Shown: in pieces, positions 264-55,200 of the stretch | Layout of the letters: each line of letters begins with the position of its first letter | Position numbering within the stretch: the first letter of the stretch is position 1 | Assembly (NCBI RefSeq): GCF_000485595.1 | Contig: NW_014577085.1 | Location: forward strand, 473,497-528,790 | DNA from: Priapulus caudatus | Taxonomy: Eukaryota > Priapulida > Priapulimorpha > Priapulimorphida > Priapulidae | Direction of reading: 5' to 3' | DNA: 55,294 bases | Made by a program: the position numbers and the translations under genes | Notes under the pieces: generated by a model | Told to the model about the DNA's origin: nothing | Databases searched by the model: none | The model's input: only the letters and a program-made list of their open reading frames with translations

Positions 264-387
264 CGAGTTGTTCATGAGAGCCTTGATGCAGCCTATTACT
301 GATGTGTGAATGCTGCTCTGACTCGTCTCGTAGTCCATGTTGCTGAGAAAGTTCAGCAGGCAGCTTAGGCCACCGAGCTGAAAGAAT
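264..387 (-). CDS. DAAM: DAAM coding exon 5 (MDYETS...[11 protein letters not shown])
   Basis: This 124-nt exon: one base (A) completes the Arg codon, then 41 residues end in ALMNNS before donor gtagga at 263. It contains [18 protein letters not shown] and [16 protein letters not shown], nearly identical to vertebrate DAAM. This region belongs to the armadillo-repeat inhibitory domain that binds the C-terminal DAD. The next exon (vertebrate QGRAHVL...) was not recognised in 1-263 and is presumably beyond the left edge. Confidence 0.95.
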
Positions 388-3156
388 CTGAAATAGCATC
401 GGCTTCCTTATTAGAGTTAATCGCAGTCGGTTTAGACTTTGTCGGTTTGCAATTTTATTGGACCCGATTTGGACAATATCGATTACCATTGTCATCATTA
501 CCATGTTGACGATCGGGACAAGTATGGCATTGACGAAAGAGCAAGAAGCTCAATAATGATGAGCAGAGTATTGTTGCTGATGGAAATGACCGTGACCGTA
601 TTTACAGCAGCGAGAACGATGATGACAGTGGGCATGCAGGCCGCTGGTGGCTGAGTATATTATAATATTACTAGTATCATAATATCTTTATATTATTATG
701 GCAAGATTAATGTAAAGAATAGGTCTCATACCTGATGACAAAACTCATTGGTTGTGTTCTGAGCGCTGTTTTCAAACTTTCCACGAGCTCCGTTCGTACC
801 CGTATTTCTTGGGCGTCTTGTGGAAATAATAACTATTAAACAGAAACACGAATAACAATTAACATGAAAAAGGATAGAACATAAATTATCGTTCATATCT
901 ATATTCGAATTATTCTTTGTAAGCTGGTATTTCTATCGAACTGTAAAATACATAAACAGTGATAGCTTGTATAAGAAGCGGGAACTTAAAATATTAAATT
1001 AAAGGGTAGCTATTAAATCAGGCGAAGTTATGAGTGCATCGTAGCTATTAGCACACCCGTGTAACCCCGGACCTCCTAAGTCAAGTCACTCGGTAAATAA
1101 AACATGCTGTGATATAAGACATTGCCTGTGTCGAATACAATGCTTTACGTGTTATAAAAATCATATATTCTATATATATATATATTGATTTCGATAGACG
1201 TACCAGAGATAATGCACCAACTCTGTCGATGTAATAGTCTGGAAGGTTTCTCGAGTTCGTCTCATCTTGTTCCTATATCATGAACACACACACGCGCGAT
1301 ATTTATACTCACTATCTATTGTATTGTTATTACCGCAGACAATTTTATATCAATGGTTACCTTCTAACGTATACACTATCAAACTACGCTAATATACAGA
1401 AACGCTTTCTTATAATGCCACGCAATCGTTTTATCATGCAGTAGTAATTAATTATCCTGTTAAGCAATAACAAATTATCGACCCTTCAACCAAAAATAAT
1501 AATCAAGCGGACGAGCCAACGAAGTGGAACAAACTAAGATTACCGTTCACTACCGTAACTTTGTATATTTCTACTTTGCAGCGGTTCCCAGTGCGGACCA
1601 GTTATCTGTCGTCAGTCATGTAATTTATGCATAATAATTCGACATTTTCTTCTGCGTGCAGATTCGGAAAATAGGCTGACGAACATTTGTATATCAGGCT
1701 AATTCATTCCCAAGTTCTTTACGCCTAAAGTTACGCATGTTTCTCCAAACAGCAAACAGTACCGATGTTTACCTATCTGTGACCTTGGCCTCCCATTAGT
1801 TAAGTATATATGGAAAAGCACTCGGTCTACAAGCCAGCCCACGCACGGCAAGGTCTATTGTAGATTTACGACGTTAATAGGTCCTGGGTTAGGAGAAACA
1901 CGCGCGGTGTATGTGGACAGGTTGCGACAATCAATTCCGGAGATTCAAAAATGCGTTCCAGCAGAATGGTCAACATTTATTTAGCGACATTAAATATTTT
2001 AAGCCTAAAAGACGTCTTAATGCGAACATCGTTTAACTTTTTATATGACGTCTACAGTTATATAACTAGACGGTTCACTGTAGCGCAGGCTTAATATTAG
2101 GCCTACACAAGTACTTCGAAACCCGAACCCGAACTTTACACACAAAGCAGGATTCCCTCCGGCGCAATCCACAACTTGCGTTACGTCTTGCATTTGTTAT
2201 GCACCTCAGACAGATCCACTCTATAGCTTATATAATTACGGACTCGCGTACAGTGATGTCCTATAGCGAAGCAGACACTAACGAATAATATGATAACCTT
2301 GAGGATCGTCGCATCAAGAGATTATCAATTAGAGATAATCGATAGTTGCGATGGGTTCACGTCGCGCAGAACTGCGCACACGTTCCATGAGATCACATGC
2401 GCGCGCCTTCGCTATAAGACGCATATGTTGCAACATACGAACAATCAGCGAAGTAATATACCTCTAACTAAAATATTGGCTGAATGTTCCGGATACGAAG
2501 AAATAAATTACTGTATCAACGGCATACGGATAGTGGAACCCGAAATTAAACGTACTTTTCTTTTCGAACAGTAGATTTGCCATTTTTTCTCGATAGACAG
2601 ATTTAACATGGCTTCCCGGTTTGGCGGTGCCAAGTCGAGCTCATCCTGCGCAAGAAACAAAATTATAGCAATCAATTAGAAATACAGCTTCCTATTTTTA
2701 CTGAGTACCCGTTAATTATAATAATTCAAGTATACATTTTTTAGAAATAGAGATGAGAGTAGAATGGAAGTGATGTGTTTTAATGATTAATTTTTGTTAA
2801 CCGTCTGTGGTCGTGAGTTTGGATGTGATTTCGCGCGCACGCGTCGCTGGTAGTGCGCGTATGTTTCGAGTCGCAGTGCGCGTCGCCACGTCCAAGGCAA
2901 TCACACATCACCGTCACCATACCAACGCAACTCGAGCGAGAGCATCTACGCACCACCAGTTCGGAAAATTTGCTGTTCAGCTCTTCCTCGTCCGGCATGC
3001 TCATGGTGGCGCTATCGGTCGTAGATTGGGTTTCTACGGAGCGCCGACTGCTGGCCGGGCTGCCCCAGGCGCGGGTGAGGGCGGGGGCATGGTAGCCACG
3101 CAAGCAGCACAGCACCCGTGCAAGGCCCGGACCGCGCGGCATCTCCTCCAACGAAT
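264..3156 (-). CDS. DAAM: DAAM formin, 5' part of gene (five coding exons, partial)
   Basis: This is the 5' portion of a Dishevelled-associated activator of morphogenesis, a Diaphanous-related formin. In known animals it nucleates and elongates actin downstream of Wnt/planar cell polarity and Rho. Coding exons on the minus strand are 3142-2954 (start ATG), 2645-2556, 1272-1204, 832-732 and 387-264. Together they encode about 191 residues, and every junction has GT..AG borders and matching phase (0, 0, 0, 2, 0). The reading follows vertebrate DAAM1/2 in order: CC-containing N-terminus, [34 protein letters not shown] and the armadillo-like stretch MDYETS...[11 protein letters not shown]. The rest of the GBD/DID, coiled coil, FH1 and FH2 lies left of the window. 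KIF6 is the divergent neighbour. Identity as DAAM is very secure. DAAM1 versus DAAM2 is not meaningful for an invertebrate with a single copy. Confidence 0.95.
732..832 (-). CDS. DAAM: DAAM coding exon 4 (ESLKTALRT block)
   Basis: This 101-nt exon starts in phase 0 after the acceptor gtttctgtttaatag and ends with AG of a split Arg codon before donor gtatga. It reads [12 protein letters not shown] then [32 protein letters not shown] is the conserved DAAM segment at the start of the armadillo-like inhibitory domain. The N-terminal half is diverged but keeps the vertebrate length (SLLALEKEEEEERSK region). The split AG+A restores Arg across the next junction, as in vertebrates (FVTR/FID). Confidence 0.9.
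1204..1272 (-). CDS. DAAM: DAAM coding exon 3 ([23 protein letters not shown])
   Basis: This 69-nt exon encodes 23 residues, phase 0 both ends. The acceptor is catgatatag and the donor gtacgt. [13 protein letters not shown] aligns with the vertebrate WPEFYIDQLNSM block directly after the WQIYCSKKK segment. The exon is short and was recognised by homology and by the matching phase of its neighbours rather than by open-frame length. Confidence 0.88.
2556..2645 (-). CDS. DAAM: DAAM coding exon 2 (DELDL...[12 protein letters not shown])
   Basis: This 90-nt exon encodes 30 residues, phase 0 at both ends. The acceptor is ...cttgcgcag and the donor is gtacgt. It begins DELDL, has NREAM in the middle and ends [12 protein letters not shown]. 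This is the strongly conserved DAAM segment leading into the GTPase-binding region; the vertebrate form is DELDLTDKHREAMF...[12 protein letters not shown]. It is the single most diagnostic DAAM exon in the window. Confidence 0.95.
2954..3156 (-). CDS. DAAM: DAAM first canonical coding exon (63 codons plus 14 nt upstream)
   Basis: The ATG is at 3142-3140, and the 63 codons end in FSELV before a donor gtgcgt at 2953. The N-terminus MPRG...RVLCCLRGY matches the DAAM pattern of a basic start followed by a CC motif, and [15 protein letters not shown] matches the conserved block before DELDL. The middle (about residues 24-47) is Ser/Thr-rich and diverged. An acceptor precedes the exon: a polypyrimidine run ending in gtgcag, with the first exon base at 3156. 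So at least one exon lies further 5'. The 14 bases between acceptor and ATG contain no stop in frame and read (N)AT-TCG-TTG-GAG-GAG, so the exon can also be entered in phase 1 from an upstream coding exon. Start choice: the first ATG, placed where vertebrate DAAM starts. Confidence 0.93.
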
Positions 3157-3212
3157 CTGCACGGAGAGAGAGAATGTCAGTGGTTGGCGTGTTAGTAAAA
3201 CGTGGAGCATAA

Positions 3213-3258
3213 TATCAGGAGTTAATAAAGACAAATTTGTCTTTATTAACTCCTGATA
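3213..3258. repeat. Perfect 46-bp palindrome without spacer
   Basis: The left arm 3213-3235 (TATCAGGAGTTAATAAAG then ACAAA) is followed at once by its exact reverse complement 3236-3258. It lies 57 bp 5' of the acceptor of the first DAAM coding exon. It could form a cruciform, or a hairpin in RNA. Confidence 0.95.
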
Positions 3259-4094
3259 ATATGTGTTACTTGCGCAGTGATCCTCGTGAATACTCCTTTA
3301 TACAATATATAATTGCGTATTGTTTGGTCATAATCATAATCACGACCATGTATTCGTTCGGAATGCCTCACTATTTTTCACAAAAAGGGCAAACGTGACT
3401 GCGCAGTGTTTTAACGCGCATCACACCTCGCGAAAAACCTCTCCCACTGTAGCAAGGCATTTCCTCAGTACACACATTGCCAGATTTCTGCAGGCGCATG
3501 AAGTTTTATTAGCGCTTACTAAGTCAGCGGTGCAGTTCTCTCACGAACTCGCGGTAGTGAGCTGCGCATTTCTACACATCCTGCGGTCGTACCGCACGTA
3601 CGTTGTCCCTTCGAACTAATATCATATATGTTGTACGTGTTTTCGTGCTCGTTACGCGAGCTCATGCGTGTGCAACGCCCCTTTTTTCGTCGTGTCCGTG
3701 TTCCGGTAATAAAACGCCCTCTATATGGGAGCCTATAAAATTCGCATCTTGCGACTATAAGCGTACTGGTCTTGGGTCTTGTCTCATGCCCCGCCGCGGT
3801 CACGAGCAATTAAGGACAGTGTCCGATTTCGCAGGATGGTAAGATTGCATAAGGGTTTTAAGATTTAAGAGTTAGAAGAGAGTTAAAGGAGTTAACGAGA
3901 CGCGCACGTTATACGAGTGTAAAAGCAGTAACATAACGCGTTTCTTACATGCGGTGTAGGCCTTGTTATCGCGAGGCTCGCTAGCGCAGACAGCTATAGC
4001 CCAAGGGAGTGCGTCAATGTACTCTTTCTCTTCTCTCCTGTACGTGAGCGTCATTAAATACACTAAATTCCACCGATGGCTCAATAATGGCTGT

Positions 4095-4364
4095 CACATT
4101 ACCAGTGGCGCCCGCAGATAGAAGCACTGGAAGCACAGTGCTTCCAGTAAATTTTGGGTTAAAAAATTTTGTTTCTACATTTTGCTCCTAAATCTCTCTC
4201 GCAAGACTCACCAGACGTCTACCATTCAAAAAGTTTCAGGGGGGGCATGCCCCCAGACCCCCTAGCATGCAGCGCGCCTGCTTTTTATTACTTTATTATC
4301 ATTGAGGATTTTATCCTTCTGTGCTTCTACTTTCTTAAGACATGTGGGCGCCAGTGCACATTAC
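4095..4364. mobile_element. hAT-like non-autonomous element with 8-bp target duplication
   Basis: The element 4103-4356 (254 bp) begins CAGTGGCGCCCGCA and ends TGTGGGCGCCAGTG, an inverted repeat with two mismatches. It is flanked by a perfect 8-bp direct repeat, CACATTAC (4095-4102 and 4357-4364). An 8-bp duplication with CA-G-TGGCG-type ends is typical of hAT elements. There is no transposase; the interior has a short local inverted repeat around GAAGCACTGG. Confidence 0.9.
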
Positions 4365-5338
4365 AACGGTAGCTATCTGTTTATGTGAGAATATTTACAT
4401 CTCGATTCAATGTGACAGTAACGCAAACTACTACATTATATCTCTCGTATTATCACATTATCTCTATCAGACGAAAATAATACAATTCTAAAAGCGTGTG
4501 CGCATTCAACCTTGTGGGATATCAGTTCTGCTTAGCAGTTAGTATGTGACGCTTCAACAAGCACCGGACAGCTGATCTTCAGGCTGTCTTCGAAAAGATT
4601 ACGAACACTCACCACACCTTTTACTTACGCGTTACTAGTGAAAACATTGAGCGTGCGTAAAAACAGTTTGCACCGTTACTAACCGTAGACATTCTGTACT
4701 CTTCAACACACGTTTCGAAAAATTATTGGAATGAGAGCCATTGTGATCAGTATAATGTGTTCAACCGGTCGAAAATGATACAAAGTTTGTATACTACATT
4801 TGTAGTAAATCCTATTACGAAAAATGTCAAGCTTGAGTTATACGTATTAAATAAACTCTCTTAATATTTCTCTACGTATATCTACTTTTTACTGAGATAT
4901 TTTGATCCCAATGTTATCATTCCTTCAAAAAGAAAATAGTGCAATGCGATGTTTTTTTTACATCAGCAGATAGTTCGGTATTCTACATCGCCCTTTTCTA
5001 ATAACAGCACACGGATATACCCGATAGATTAACAATCTTTGACGCATATTTTAGCGATAGCGATCAGGTTTCTATTCTGTCGCTCATTATGACAGTTTCT
5101 TAGCCTGGAGCGTTTCATGCTCCTCACACCTTCAATTCAGATTTCAACGATGAACTATTATGCACTGTCAGTAATCCACCTACGCAGCCAAGGAAAAATC
5201 ACGCGCAGCGGAATAGATGTGATGACATCAAATAATAATACAATTCTATAATTTCAAACGATAAATAGACACGCGATATAAACTCGGTTGCCGTTATTCC
5301 CCAATGCTCACAACGAAACTATAATAACGTAGACGTAC

Positions 5339-5534
5339 CGTTTCTGTTACTGGCACTACTGGCCACCAGTCTGGAAGCGAATGCCTTTCCGCTCGCCCAG
5401 TGACCGACAAATTTCCCGTACGACAATACCATGATCTCCATGCTCTCACGCCGAAACTGCGGCAGCGGACTGTCGCCAGTCACTGCCAGCGGACGATAGA
5501 AGCACGGGCCGCTGGCGTATAATCGTATTCGCAT
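5339..5534 (-). CDS. Candidate alternative first coding exon of DAAM (upstream, proximal)
   Basis: This minus-strand open frame starts at ATG 5534 with an in-frame stop (TAA) just upstream. It has 65 codons and ends one base into a codon at donor gtacgt (5338). That phase (1) fits the acceptor at 3157: the split codon becomes Asp and the frame stays open into the DAAM start. It is GC-rich and codon-like (LYASGPCFYRPLAVTGDS near the start, SMEIMVLSYGKFVGHWASGK in the middle). Against it, the start context is poor, and an out-of-frame ATG four bases earlier opens a 30-codon frame. I do not recognise the protein. It could be an alternative DAAM N-terminus, a 5'UTR exon that happens to be open, or chance. 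Confidence 0.35.
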
Positions 5535-8500
5535 ACATCGTTAGACCTCACAGCATCCGCCGATCACGCAAATAATTGATAAGCCACGTGCGCAGTCTCT
5601 CAGTGGGCGATTACACCCGCGCGCATATGCTCTCCCGTACTACTTGTCGGATGCTGAGGGAAGTCGTGCGCAGCGTCTGCATCGCTGTCTGGTCGTGACC
5701 CAGTGAAGCCCACAATTGCTGCTGTTTCTGACCTAGTAAACCTTATTTGTGATACCGTGTCAGTACGGCTCCAATCGCAGCAGCAATAACGCTGTCGTTT
5801 TTACAGCTATTACGCGATGTAAAGCTATATAGGCAGCCGAGTTAGAATCAATAAAATCATTTTTTAAATTCATTTCACGCGGCAGTCTACTAAATTCCCG
5901 CGCACTGGCATTAGTAATGGTAATGTTGACACAAGATTACGCTAAACGATAGGGTGGAGTTAGGCGGTGTGGGTGTGTAGATGTTCTCACGGATACGGAC
6001 GTAGCTGGTACGTATCTCCCACAAGTGGATTTTGTAAACATATCTTCAAGGCTGTTCGAACCGCTAAATACAAATTACAACAATGTTGTCGCTACATTAC
6101 AATTGAACGTCTATCCGTCTTGCACGAGTGATTGACACACTGTTCTGCATACCGACTGACAGTAGTAGTACCCAACCATTACGAACGATTATGATGAAGC
6201 CAGTCTGTAGTTTCCACGCAGATATTTCGATCTTTGAAAACACTGCCGACAAACAGTTTCGCTCCTAGCTGGTTGTTAGTGAGAAGAAAGGGGCGCGATC
6301 ATCCTGGATATTATCGTCTCTATACTGCAGCGATCGGTGGTGGGTACGCTTACTGTGAATTCAGAAATGATGCACAGAAAGTGTTAAAGTTGTAATTTAA
6401 GCGAAGGTTGTGGCCTTCACATGATCTGTACTGATTGTGTTCAGCGTAGCGGGCTAATTAGCTTGTTCATCTCTATAATGACATGCGAGAATGGATACAC
6501 TTGCCGTACAAAATGAAAGGGAATATAGTGAATGCATAGAGTTACTAAACATCTGCCCGTCTGCAGACGCAGAGAGTGTCGGGGCTGCATGGGCTGGATA
6601 ATAATGCAATGAATTATTGATGGTGGCGGAATGAAAGCATGCACGCAATCACTCGCCTACCATGTTCAACGCAAACCCACCCACTATACATCTATAATTT
6701 ACAGAATATTTCGTTTACACTGCGATCAGACCAATTATCCGTTTAGATGGCATAATTAGGACAAACAAACGAGGTGAAATAAAATACAGCGTATATTTAC
6801 TTTTTCACATTATTTGAACAAAATAAAGAGCCACATTTGCGGTATCTGTAGTAGCTTTTTTTTAAAGAAATGCAAAACGCGCGATCTATGTCAATGAAAC
6901 GTTATTCAAATATTTATGCAAACTGAGTAAAGTATTTAATTTAACGCGAAATTAGTCCAATATAACTAATTAATTGCACAAAAAGTGCTATGCAAAAGTT
7001 ATAGTTTTCATACAATATAGTATAACCTTCGACGGGATAAATTCGGAGTGTATAGGGAGAATGAAGAGATTAAACGCTGTCAGTCTCCGTCCTTGGATTT
7101 CATAGTAAATCATTAAATGTGGTATAGAATCGGCGCGGTGTTTTGCCACAGAACTAGGTCAGCACCGATGCGAGAGTTTGCCTACATTCTCGTCTCATCA
7201 CATTAATTCAAGACGACAGCACTTCACGTTCCTCTCATGTACATCGGCACTTAGCCGCCCAGCACATCTACGCGATCGCTGCAGATGCTAGCGATGCTAG
7301 GAATCAGCGTATTGCTGAGGCAACTACTCACATCATCAGCTATGTATCATCGCGCGGTAGCAGCGCCAACATCGTACGATTACTAGCCTTTGCGTTCCCC
7401 ATAATGAGGTAAGGGCGACCGCCATAGCGCCGCGCTGTCGCCAGCGCCGAATTATACAATTTCCATTTGATTTGCTATCTATGAGTGGAACACAGCGCCA
7501 ATAGAAACGGATAAATAGTAGACTCTGCTGCCTGCACAGGATTCATGAAGCAGAACACGTATCCATTGTGTATAATCATAAATTTTATGATGAGTCGTAA
7601 TCACAGTAACGTGTGCTCCTCTAAAAGTGCGCGAAAGTGCGGTGACGTGCAGAATGACATCGAAATCGTGACAGGTCATTAAAATATAGAATGGTTTAAC
7701 GCGCATTCTCCTCACATGACCTATTCCAGCGAGCCGACAACGAAATACTATATACGTAGTTTCGCGAGAATAGTAGAAATCTCAAACATTGTCTCATAAC
7801 TGTACAATACCTGCTGCACCGTTGATCCGCTTCTTTCGCAGACTTTCCCTGAACGGAATGGGAGATAGAGGGATGTACTTCCCGAATCTTGCCTTCATCT
7901 TTGCACTCATAATTAAAGGGTCCACTTGTGCTTTAGACGAAACACCGCACACAGATTTTATTCTGTCTTATCTGATATAACGCTCACGCTCTTCGCTGTA
8001 AAACCGTCTTGCTTCCCAAAGTTGACTCCAAACTCCGCAAACAGTTACATGCATGCACACTAAGAAATAGAGTAGTTAGATACTGGCAAAGGAGCCTCTG
8101 ATATTATGGGCTATTTGGGACTAGCCAACCGCTCAACGTGCAATATGTCTAATTACACCGGTCAATCAATGCGGATACCAAATTCAAATGTTATATAATC
8201 ACTGCTCTTCAATGACAAGAGCATTGTGTCTCTGTTCTTGCATGTCCTTGACATTTATATGCAAAATATGCACGCAGGAAGAGACCGGCAGAATGTAATG
8301 GCAAGTCTGCCTACTATAGCAGCTATTTGTGTAATCACAGATGCGCGCGCATTATCAGGTCCGTCTTCAACGAAAGCTGCGAGGGCAAACGCGATCGTTT
8401 CTCTCGTTATTTATGTAATAGTCTGTCTGCAACGCACCTGCGGTGGTCTTAACCAGTCGTTTGCTCGGTTGGAATGCTTTTCGGAAACGTACTCTTTAAC

Positions 8501-8860
8501 TGCGTCGTGCGCACGCCACTCACAACAATAGCCATATTATGCAATCTAAGCAGCGCAGGGGAGAGCCGTGAAATGGGGGTTTCTTCTACGGAAATACCAC
8601 CGCTTTCCCTTTCTCTGCCACGCTCGCTATAGCGAGCTTTTCATCATATTAAAAAAAAGCTGAATTGAAGTTTTTAAATCCAGTACTTCAAGGCCAGACA
8701 TGTCTGAGATTATACATGCACGGGGACTGCATCCTCTGCTGGTGGCTGGCTAGGTTGTTAGTATCACGCGAGCATAGACGACGGTACAGAGCACATATAT
8801 ACCGATCAACTGTCGATAAAACACACGAACACACGTCTCAAGTCTGCGTCAAGATTTCAC

Positions 8861-8940
8861 AACATTTCACTGATTGTCAGTTTTTCGTTTCACATTTCAC
8901 AGATTGTCAGTTTTTAGTTTCACAGTTCACAGATTTTCCT
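8861..8940 (+). repeat. Short tandem repeat, about 28-bp unit, three copies
   Basis: The motif TTTCAC(A/T)GATTGTCAGTTTT is repeated with small changes; the third copy is truncated. Confidence 0.7.
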
Positions 8941-10935
8941 ATCAAAATTCAGCAATGTATCCGTAAGATGATTTCGTCGTACGTTAAGGAATTTCGATGG
9001 AGCCGCTATATATGCGATACAGTTCAATGTTTGAGCGCGGCAGGGTTTTCGCCTTCATAGCGCCGCATAGATGAGATTCACCAAGTATCAGAGAAGCCGG
9101 GAAAACTAAATCAGCTTTATTCAGCTCTGAATTGCTTGCGATGCTTCTCCAACAAGAAAAACGACGGTATCCAGCACATCCGACATGAAGTTATTTCTCT
9201 GTCTATCGTCGTATTACTGCATGCATATAACGACTGGTTATATTCACTCTGGTATAAACATTGACTCGCAGAACTAATATTCTGTATGTCCTCTTTAGCC
9301 AACCGTATTCCAACCTATACTCTCAGATCACGGCATTTATCAATCATTCTGCAATTTACGATCCAATCCCCCGACCAACTTTTTGCACACAGGCTGATTT
9401 TCAAACCTACACGCGCGCACACATACGGATATGTATATGTGAGCTCGTCTATGTGCGACCAATACCACCAGTCAGCTGTAACACCTTCAGTGTCATCAAA
9501 ACAGCGAAAGGAGCCAATAGTGGACGCTACTGGAGTTTAAGGCATGTTTTGACCATTTGCAGAGAGGCCAGCGTTAAGAGGATTTCCATGTTGATCAAAC
9601 ACGGGACATTTTCCCGAACAAAGACGACCATCTACGTGGCTGTACGTAATTGTATAGATTTTTTTATCGCACAATGAGTCGAAGGGGGTCACACCAAGGT
9701 CCCGTGTATGCGTACGGTACATATACCGACCACAATGGCAACAGGAACATTTATTCCTAAAGCGGGCTGGCCCAGCAATTCTTGGTCATTTCAAGGAGAA
9801 GGACAGACATATCAAAAGGCAACCTAAACGTTTAGTAGGATGAATGAGTAAATAGAAAAACCGAAAAGTTTATACTAATGTGTGTTATGAAGTTAGGATT
9901 ATGCCTACCAAGGTCATAATCGATCGTTCGAGTTGCTTTCGCTTGCACGATACAATTTTCTGGAATAATAGCGAGCAGTTAACGTGCCATTTTTATGCTA
10001 TGTTAGGACCATGTGGGTGATCATCGACAGCTAAAGTTACGATCTTGCAAATTTGTAGCTGCAAGTTGCAGTCTATATATATTTAGCTGAATTTGATTAC
10101 ATTCAAGCGAACACTGTACATGTATAAGTGAAAGACACGATAAAACTAGACATATTCCATATCCTAGATATATCTCCGGGTATACATTGTTCCTATCGTA
10201 TACTCCGCGCGAATATGTGATCTCCGTTCTAAATTTATAAATTCGACCAAACAGTATATATTTCTGTGGAAAAATTCGTACCGGACATGTATGCGTCAAC
10301 ACAAATCTTACCAAATGATAGAGTATATAGAAAAATCTAGGAAGATGGGGTCGCCTTGTATTTATTCAAGTATCACTGTTGAGTAGGTGCCGTCTACGAT
10401 TAATTTCGAATAAACGTGTTTTCTCTTAGCAATTATGGAATGCGCGAAAACAACGCTTATACCTTATGTCGCTGTACAGGGAAATTAATTCGCACATATA
10501 ATTATAAAACAAAAAATTATTAAAGACATGGTGGTACTGGTGGTGAAGTAAGTACACGTGTGCTCTTGCTCTGCGCTCTGAGTCTCATGTGTAGTTTCAA
10601 CCAAATAAGAATGGGGCTGGGTTTATATCAATGCAGTTTCCTAGGTAAAAATATCATTTCCTGATTTCAGGTTATATAAAATCGCAATTCAACGATTTCC
10701 CGCGCCCCGATTCACCTACTCCAGAATCACGAAAAATTCATCCGGTATTTCCCGGTCCCCAGATCAGATGCCGCGTTCCGCATCACCTCTCAAATAATAA
10801 TAATGCGACTGCAAATACGAATGACAATGTACAAATAAAAATTCCTACTAATATATGCTTCAGTATTTAAAAAAAGAGCCTTGCGCTACCTGCACCAGGG
10901 ACAATTGTCATATACAATATAAGTGATATATATTT

Positions 10936-10994
10936 GATTTTAGTTGATAAATATATGATATATATATATATATATATATAATATATATATATAC
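10936..10994. repeat. AT dinucleotide repeat
   Basis: Alternating TA/AT tract, interrupted a few times. Confidence 0.9.
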
Positions 10995-11232
10995 TACCGA
11001 TCTCTTGATTGACAGGTTGACTCTAGCTATAAGACGACATCATGTTTTGCGAGTTAATGGTAAGTAGATCTCGATAGACTAACGTTAGTCGTTAGTAATA
11101 ATGGTGACAACGACACGGTATTCCTATACATTACATGTGTTTGTATAATCTGACTTGTATTAATATGACTGTAATTGTATAATATATAGGCCCCTATACT
11201 GTATATAGTCTGTACCATCAGACTATTGTTTT

Positions 11233-11337
11233 CTATATTATTTCTATTGTATAATCAAGAGCGTATAATTTAAGAATTAGTGTTATTCTTTAATACGCTC
11301 TTGGCTGCTATGATTAGCCATAGAAATAATATAGATA
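11233..11337. repeat. AT-rich inverted repeat (hairpin)
   Basis: The core arms CAAGAGCGTAT (11256-11266) and ATACGCTCTTG (11293-11303) are perfect. Similarity extends outward through CTATATTATTTCTAT-like sequence on both sides. Confidence 0.7.
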
Positions 11338-12343
11338 ATTCATTACTCTATATTATTAATCATATTATTTCTTAAGGATTAGCAGAGTATAATATTTGAT
11401 AGTACGGCTCTGCGAGTATGAAACCATAATAACTTAGTAATACCAATGAAGAACCACTAAAAAACGACCAGCCGGACCAAATGTATCCAATAGCGTATGT
11501 GTTACAAGATAGCTATTTTTACCCATGCGTGCGTAGCGTAGATTGAACTATGTTTTCCTTGGTGTCAAACTTGAGTAAGAATTAAAGAATAAATGGTAAG
11601 GCAATGAATCAAAGTCTTTGGTAGGTGAAACCTAAAAAGAAAACCCAGTAGGTTAGCAGATGATATACTTCAAAAAAATCTTTATGTAAGTTCTAACATC
11701 TGCAGAATCAACGTTTGACATGTGCTGAGCTACGTACCATTACGCACTGACAAATTACAGTACTGTGCAAGTAGTCACCAGTTGTGTGTAATTATACTAT
11801 TGTTTAGAGTGATGTTTGTGCAGGTAGTAGTCCGCTAGGCTTGATTGATATACCATTATATTATCCTTATAAATGGTCCCTTCAGTCTATAACATCAGAG
11901 AGTAAAGAACATCAGTCAGTCATTCATTTAACTTCCTCGTGCCAGCTGCTGATGAGTGTCAATAACAAAAAAAAGTCTATATTCGGCGTAATATTCATCG
12001 AGTTTGAAGATCAAACATTAGTAAATGAATAGTATATGTACGTGTAGCAATTTATTGCAAAAAATTGTTTTTCAATGACTAATGGCAATACAACCACATA
12101 ATTTCCAGTTTTGGCCAGGTTTCCAAATGAAATTCATCGGACATTCCATCTTAAAACAATTTATTACTGAATACGAGTATGGCACCTGTTACGAAATTAA
12201 TTGTGTTAACAATTCAAATAGCCTATATGTCCCGTATATACCACATACCATTACGGGTGCCTGCTGCGCTTTTGGAACCTAAGCTGTTCATCCCATATCT
12301 AAACAATATATATAGTAACTCTAAACAAAAATGACAATTTCAG

Positions 12344-12385
12344 CTCCATAACAACGGCAACAGAGACAGATTATAAATTCACGAT
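12344..12385 (+). other. Weak candidate for the KIF6 exon preceding 12768
   Basis: This 42-nt segment is flanked by acceptor caatttcag and a weak donor gtcgtc. Its phase would join the next exon, reading ...TETDYKFT-I-FDKVFDQ. YKF resembles the vertebrate KIF6 strand YKFKFQRIFDQ, but one residue is extra, the donor is poor and the upstream part does not match. It is reported only because the preceding KIF6 exon must exist and ends in phase 2. Confidence 0.15.
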
Positions 12386-12433
12386 GTCGTCCCACCTTAA
12401 GGCTCGTCGCTAAGTATCGCTCATAGGCTATGT

Positions 12434-12668
12434 CCCGCCAGGGTACGCCGAACTACCCTGGGTACGGTCCGGTATACCGGAACGTACCCTGGTCACTATT
12501 GATATGGTTGGTTAGGATTTAAGGTAGGGTGTTAGGGTTAGGGTAGGTAGGCGTAGGCGACTCCCAGACTCGTTAGTGAGTAGGCGAGGTACGTCGCATA
12601 TTAGATAGTACCAGGGTACGTTCCGGTATACCGGACTGTACCCAGGGTACGTTCCGGCAGTACCCCGG
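12434..12668. mobile_element. Foldback element with TTAGGG-like core
   Basis: The arms at about 12434-12497 and 12607-12668 are inverted copies. Each contains the self-complementary CCGGTATACCGG (12469-12480 and 12623-12634) next to GTACCCTGG. The roughly 110-bp core holds GGGTGTTAGGGTTAGGGTAG, a telomere-like tract. Confidence 0.85.
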
Positions 12669-12767
12669 GGAACATGACAGACCCTCTCAGCATAACTATC
12701 ACTTGCGTAGTAAAAGTTCAATGTGTGAACAATGAATTAAATTCAAATAAACAACTATACTTTGCAG

Positions 12768-54610
<41,843 letters not shown>

Positions 54611-54657: not shown

Positions 54658-55200
54658 AGCTCACCTTGACATCGTCAAGATGAGCTATTGCCATGGGGCG
54701 TCGTCTCGTCGTCCGTCAACATTTGGCTATGGTCAACGATAACTTGAGAACCGTTTGACCCACATGTTTCGTATTGCATACAGTTGTTACTCCTATGGGA
54801 GAGATGTGAACGTCCTATTTTGGAGCACGCCAGTTGACCTACTTTCGAGCCACGCCCACTTTTTGGCAAAAATGGAAACGGCCATAAGTCAGTTCAGGTT
54901 CAATGGATTTTGCTCATTTTTTGGTACGTGAATGAATAAGGACTGGCCCCAATACATATCACACCGGTTTTTTTTTAATTATGCAAATTAGGTAGATTTT
55001 TGGCAATTTCACTATGCATTTCAGTGTCTGCCTACGGTCAACGATAACTCAAGAACCGTTTGACCCACATGTTTCAAATTGCATACAGTTGTTACTCCTA
55101 TGGGAGAGATCTGCACGTCCTATTTTGGAGCACGCCAGTCGACCTACTTTCGAGCCACGCCCACTTTTTGGCAAAAATGAAAATGGCCATCTAGATTCAT
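54658..55200 (+). repeat. Dispersed-type repeat containing a 305-bp tandem duplication
   Basis: A segment of about 160 bp (GGTCAACGATAACTTGAGAA... to TTTTTGGCAAAAATG) at 54731 recurs at 55036 with about 95% identity. The left edge is a hairpin: TAGCTCACCTTGAC and its complement, with one mismatch (54658-54688). This looks like a mobile-element fragment in the KIF6 intron after the 54610 donor. Open frames in it are not coding. Confidence 0.75.

Follow-up and report, generated by a model that had tools for sequence, protein, structure and literature searches.

The window analysed here, a stretch of 55,294 bases of the Priapulus caudatus genome, contains parts of two protein-coding genes: a member of the DAAM formin family, hereafter DAAM-A, on the minus strand, and the ciliary kinesin gene KIF6 on the plus strand. 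No RNA genes were found in the window, either at gathering scores or by ARAGORN, and a search of NCBIfam gave no match. Exons were located using human KIF6 and DAAM1 sequences as queries. This recovered the full set of nine expected KIF6 exons, but only four for DAAM, of which five were expected; the remaining DAAM exon (1272-1204) was picked up in translations of the window and then confirmed. Splice borders were taken from the sequence itself, and the final reconstruction fixes all of the junctions. The exon sets of the original prediction, five for DAAM and nine for KIF6, proved accurate, and its outermost coordinates (264 and 54610) coincide exactly with the ends of exons.

The DAAM-A gene

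The five predicted minus strand exons, at 3156-2954, 2645-2556, 1272-1204, 832-732 and 387-264, have AG/GT borders and consistent phases, and constitute coding exons 2 to 6, as established by exon mapping (by translation in the case of exon 4) and reconstruction. The stitched exons match the Pfam family Drf_GBD (E = 2.4e-25), with exon 6 contributing to this GTPase-binding domain, and the gene runs past the left edge of the window. The best match of the DAAM search was P0121, a P. caudatus protein annotated as 'disheveled-associated activator of morphogenesis 1-like isoform X2'. This protein begins with a further coding exon on the minus strand at 23205-22947, which opens with an ATG at 23205, encodes approximately 86 residues identical to the start of P0121 and ends in the donor GTAAGC. 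Intron 1, between this exon and exon 2, is 19,790 bp long (3157-22946). With exact junctions across all six exons, the residues encoded in the window correspond to the first 282 of P0121, with 282/282 identical, and it is this match that assigns the window to a priapulid (Ecdysozoa) and to P. caudatus. The full protein carries Drf_GBD, Drf_FH3 and FH2 domains and a DAD-like motif, EFDNLISVLRTGDVF, which identifies it as a DAAM formin, the GBD part being the portion that falls within the window.

The assignment of exon 1 is based on a predicted gene model and on canonical splice sites, with the donor, the acceptor GTGCAG of exon 2 and the reading frame all fitting exactly. Its open reading frame matched no Pfam family, and a comparison of its peptide with the other 119 proteins retained from the DAAM search, the best 120 of 1856, gave nothing credible (best E = 8.4). 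Likewise, CpG content gave no peak near 23 kb that might signal a DAAM promoter, with observed to expected ratios of 0.99-1.01 relative to 1.03 overall. Exon 2 contains an internal ATG, at 3142, at the position where, by eye, other DAAM proteins start. As its peptide is unmatched among the DAAM-search proteins listed and this internal ATG lies at the usual DAAM start, exon 1 looks like a later acquisition, and we infer from these sequence features that it was added to DAAM-A within the lineage.

The KIF6 gene and its missing N-terminus

Nine plus strand exons, all with AG/GT borders and in consistent phase, encode 334 residues of KIF6 without a stop. Located through exon mapping and reconstruction, these lie at 12768-12842 (the first found, starting FDKVFDQ), 13085-13127, 15250-15354 (containing the P-loop, TGSGKT), 51591-51700, 52705-52834, 53182-53300 (containing the NQASTRSH and LVDLAG motifs), 53472-53559, 53991-54134 and 54420-54610, the last of which encodes the end of the motor and residues beyond it, with the gene continuing past the right edge of the window. 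The third and fourth exons are separated by an intron of 36,236 bp (15355-51590). Within the exon at 53472-53559, a valine replaces a glycine relative to SERVGKTNVGGT of the homologue P0001.

The stitched exons match the Pfam Kinesin family (E = 2.4e-95), and the motor is closest to KIF6: relatives among the best 120 of 7961 matches are 72-75% identical, and the KIF name, where one is given, is KIF6, with a single protein, from Mytilus, labelled 'kinesin family member 6/9'. A 'kinesin-like protein' (7n61) and KIF9 took the top ranks in a comparison with solved structures. We take KIF6 to be a member of the kinesin-9 family.

The motor is incomplete within the window. In KIF6 homologues, about 58 residues precede the part encoded by the first exon found here, and a motif search of the whole window did not detect the N-terminal strand typified by IFARVKP. 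A profile of the N-terminus was constructed from those 90 of 236 KIF proteins having a start methionine and the R[VA][KR]P motif, and was applied both whole and in three parts; the best open reading frame in the window outside the known exon scored 8.0 bits. As a control, 19 non-vertebrate or unnamed proteins were chosen, of which 12 were among the 90 and tested by leaving them out, the other seven falling outside; every piece of these 12 scored at least 19.9 bits, and all 12 carry the motif. Because profile and control are both limited to motif carriers, very small exons or an N-terminus lacking the motif could still be hidden in the window. The start of KIF6 may accordingly be situated to the left of the window, within DAAM-A or past it; otherwise the first part of the gene may have diverged or been lost, be broken up into tiny exons, or be misassembled. 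With this part undetected, KIF6 may be damaged or its assembly faulty. Neither the best 120 of 7175 matches (184-584 residues) nor the best 120 of 7961 (415-1321 residues) included a KIF6 protein from Priapulus. As a match of the protein to itself would be expected at the top of such a list, this is consistent with an incomplete or absent gene model.

Interleaving of the two genes

Each gene has exons inside an intron of the other. DAAM-A intron 1 hosts the KIF6 exons at 12768-12842, 13085-13127 and 15250-15354, while DAAM-A exon 1 sits in the long KIF6 intron, together with a ten-base assembly gap and two minisatellite arrays. The original prediction had the 5' ends of the two genes facing one another; this description does not survive the addition of exon 1, which starts the DAAM model 20 kb further upstream and within KIF6, with the 5' end of KIF6 itself undetected in the window. 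Since each gene has exons inside the other's intron, the two are not divergent neighbours flanking an intergenic space. Instead they form, given the DAAM gene model, a divergent pair on opposite strands whose 5' parts overlap, the mapped coding extents having 10,438 bp in common. On the same model, DAAM-A and KIF6 are protein genes interleaved on opposite strands.

This geometry also bears on the suggestion that the genes share a promoter region. A bidirectional promoter would have two starts around a short common gap, and no such gap is present: isoform X2 starts at 23205, beyond the KIF6 exons at 12768-15354, and no start was detected for KIF6 in the window. For the annotated isoform X2, the idea of facing 5' ends with a promoter in common is rejected, and the proposal is left unsupported.

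Two DAAM paralogues in Priapulus

The DAAM matches listed include two P. caudatus proteins: P0121 (DAAM-A), from a contig of 926,582 bases, and P0124 (DAAM-B), from a contig of 442,612 bases. In a tree of 19 DAAM sequences, these group with P0122 (support 100/100), apart from the other 16, and DAAM-B pairs with P0122 (98/97). The terminal branch of DAAM-A has a length of 1.04, as against a median of 0.19, and the program cautions that a branch of this length cannot be placed with certainty. Across the GBD-FH3 region, identity to nine other DAAM proteins is 61.5-68.4% for DAAM-A and 70.9-83.7% for DAAM-B; when P0122, a near relative of DAAM-B, is removed, these ranges become 61.5-67.3% and 70.9-75.9%. 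The FH2 domain, again omitting P0122, displays a smaller gap, at 47.5-53.3% and 50.7-59.1% respectively. Judged on these sequence comparisons, the KIF6-linked DAAM-A is the more diverged and faster-evolving copy, and DAAM-B the better conserved. DAAM-A nevertheless appears functional, as it has kept the GBD, FH3 and FH2 domains and the DAD-like motif.

Linkage of DAAM and KIF6 in other animals

Conservation of a DAAM2-KIF6 linkage in vertebrates, as originally claimed, is supported. Entries from the match lists, comprising the best 120 of 1856 for DAAM, and the best 120 of 7175 and best 120 of 7961 for KIF6, were compared by eye; the 44 DAAM and 19 KIF6 entries read overlapped in six species, all vertebrates. 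Among the matches listed, DAAM2 and KIF6 were on the same record in all six (Ictalurus punctatus, Scleropages formosus, Paramormyrops kingsleyae, Erpetoichthys calabaricus, Aplochiton taeniatus and Paroedura picta), where the same record means the same species and an equal record size, which does not prove adjacency. A second, partial DAAM2 record from Scleropages, on a contig of 179,747 bases, had no partner among the KIF6 entries listed. We take the human DAAM2 and KIF6 genes to be side by side and not overlapping, in a presumed head-to-head orientation.

Published gene lists agree with this linkage. A human insertion of approximately 389 kb that derives from 6p21.2 is reported to include portions of both KIF6 and DAAM2 (PMC8990796), and human DAAM1 is placed on chromosome 14, away from KIF6 (PMC8143408). 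In cattle, one list gives the genes in the order KCNK16, KIF6, DAAM2, MOCS1 (PMC12075139), and another has KCNK16 and KCNK17 between KIF6 and DAAM2 (PMC8396740), although the order of such lists may not be that of the map. KIF6, DAAM2 and DAAM1 are named among the candidate-region genes of one chromosome in the fish Evynnis cardinalis (PMC13240142). Searches of the literature available found no treatment of DAAM2-KIF6 synteny or of KIF6 microsynteny; passages from several of the papers naming both DAAM and KIF6 contained no discussion of deep synteny, and the main text of a study of metazoan synteny names neither (PMC8851819).

Among the matches listed, a DAAM-KIF6 linkage was observed in vertebrates and Priapulus only. 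On this distribution of sequences, the link in Priapulus is likely, though unproven, to be the same ancestral link as that of vertebrates.

Comparison with known arrangements

One close parallel is the vertebrate DAAM2-KIF6 pair, exemplified by human 6p21.2, in which the same two gene families are linked. It differs from the Priapulus pair in that the mapped parts of the latter are interleaved for 10.4 kb or more, and in that the linked DAAM of Priapulus is one of two copies. The divergent (5'-5') and embedded classes of antiparallel overlap described by PMC2330155 likewise involve opposite strands, overlapping 5' parts and exons within the introns of the partner; the Priapulus pair is known from coding extents, and a KIF6 start to the left of the window would convert it into the embedded arrangement. 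Resemblance can also be found to genomic regulatory blocks such as wnt7-atxn10 (PMC8851819), where linkage joins a developmental gene to one that is unrelated and has large introns, although the KIF6-linked DAAM of Priapulus is the more diverged copy and the pair is known from coding exons. Finally, the nested pairs LRRTM/alpha-catenin (PMC3933685) and synapsin/Timp (PMC2330155) combine a gene on the opposite strand of an intron with long-standing linkage, as appears to be the case here, but are nested in one intron, whereas the exons of both Priapulus genes interleave.

Origin and maintenance of the pair

The explanation we favour, and consider more likely than not, is that an old, inherited DAAM-KIF6 linkage has been joined by a lineage-specific interleaving of the 5' parts, which holds the pair together mechanically. 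The linkage itself would most likely date from the bilaterian ancestor, given that DAAM2 and KIF6 are linked in vertebrates, and the overlap is probably later and specific to the lineage. By one of two routes, DAAM-A would have gained an upstream promoter and its 86-residue first exon inside KIF6, overlap between genes being known to arise when new exons are adopted (PMC2151771); by the other, the 5' end of KIF6 would have moved past DAAM-A. Once interleaved, the pair could be held mechanically, needing neither a shared promoter nor shared enhancers: it would be locked, because any break falling between approximately 12.8 and 22.9 kb would part exons of DAAM-A and of KIF6 alike. Such locking would be partly escaped by a DAAM isoform that uses the ATG at 3142 as its start. 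In a human-mouse comparison, conservation was lower for 5'-5' overlaps (14 of 115 human pairs) than for the other partial classes, convergent (153 of 328) and parallel (5 of 33) (PMC2330155), so the overlap need not be common to other priapulids.

Should the link prove ancestral, DAAM-KIF6 would be added to the gene pairs kept together since early bilaterians, and Priapulus would exhibit a simple, non-regulatory way of fixing such a pair, through exons threaded through one another. The second DAAM, on another contig of the same species, provides a natural test. A stronger version of the mechanical account, which we put forward tentatively, is that KIF6 begins to the left of the window, such that DAAM-A is largely or wholly embedded in the transcription unit of KIF6, and that a pair of neighbours of bilaterian age has become inseparable by rearrangement, with the ancestral DAAM role having passed to the unlinked DAAM-B.

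The most credible competitor, albeit one we would back well behind the mechanical account, shares with it the ancestry of the link, but proposes that neighbours in the bilaterian ancestor simply were never separated, the overlap being incidental and constraining nothing. A link by itself requires no function, and the predominantly unconserved nature of 5'-5' overlaps (PMC2330155) fits such neutral retention; yet alone it does not account for animals as different as ray-finned fish, a gecko, mammals and Priapulus all having the linkage, if microsynteny has otherwise been lost.

It has alternatively been suggested that regulation keeps the genes together, either through a shared promoter region or because the introns of one gene, with KIF6 perhaps as the bystander, hold enhancers of the other. 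The occurrence of the linkage in both vertebrates and Priapulus is in keeping with this, the large introns, of 19.8 and 36.2 kb, give room for such elements, and blocks of this kind have been described (PMC8851819). We nevertheless regard it as improbable, as there is no gap with two facing starts, the annotated DAAM start being within KIF6 and that of KIF6 being undetected in the window. Of the two Priapulus DAAM genes, moreover, it is the one linked to KIF6 that has diverged further, and this counts against a regulatory block kept for DAAM, without excluding one.

Slightly less plausible still is that the exon at 22947-23205 belongs to another minus strand gene within the KIF6 intron and has been mis-chained to DAAM by the gene predictor, in which case the pair would be plainly divergent. 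The lack of a Pfam match for its open reading frame, and of counterparts to its peptide among the DAAM-search proteins listed, might be expected of such an artefact, but the exact fit of donor, acceptor and frame argues against it, as does the appearance of the exon in a named isoform model (X2). Named isoform models usually rest on transcript evidence.

Marginally behind this stands a secondary association, in which a priapulid DAAM duplicate came to lie next to or within KIF6 through an event unrelated to the vertebrate pair. DAAM-A is indeed one of two copies that the tree joins with P0122, apart from the remaining 16 sequences, and the insertion of a copy could account for the mutual placement of exons in introns. 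However, a chance landing beside the very gene linked to vertebrate DAAM2 would be unlikely, and simple insertion into one KIF6 intron fails to explain the KIF6 exons in the DAAM intron.

A scaffold misjoin that sets KIF6 beside DAAM is very improbable: although the window's one assembly gap, ten Ns at 30614-30623 in the KIF6 intron, falls in an AG repeat, and low-complexity arrays are present in the same intron, DAAM exons 1-6 and the KIF6 exons from 12768 to 15354 all lie to its left on N-free sequence, and the KIF6 protein continues in phase across it, with the 26 residues (counted by eye) from GIIPR to SYLEI spaced as in the homologue P0001.

Repeats in the window

Several repeats accompany the two genes. 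A 30 bp tandem repeat (4.2 copies, 23910-24036) lies approximately 0.7 kb upstream of the ATG of DAAM-A exon 1; its minus strand translation is a run of prolines and alanines that mimics an FH1 region in searches. Within the long KIF6 intron, an AG dinucleotide array at 30421-30687 spans the sole assembly gap, and two arrays of a 23 bp minisatellite, at 45436-47801 (about 102 copies) and 48349-49296 (about 41 copies), have a strong GC skew and are open in frames of hundreds of residues, but are not genes. Beyond the last KIF6 exon found, two similar open stretches, at 54743-54931 and 55048-55194 (RLTHMF.IAYSCYSYGRD), have the appearance of a dispersed repeat.
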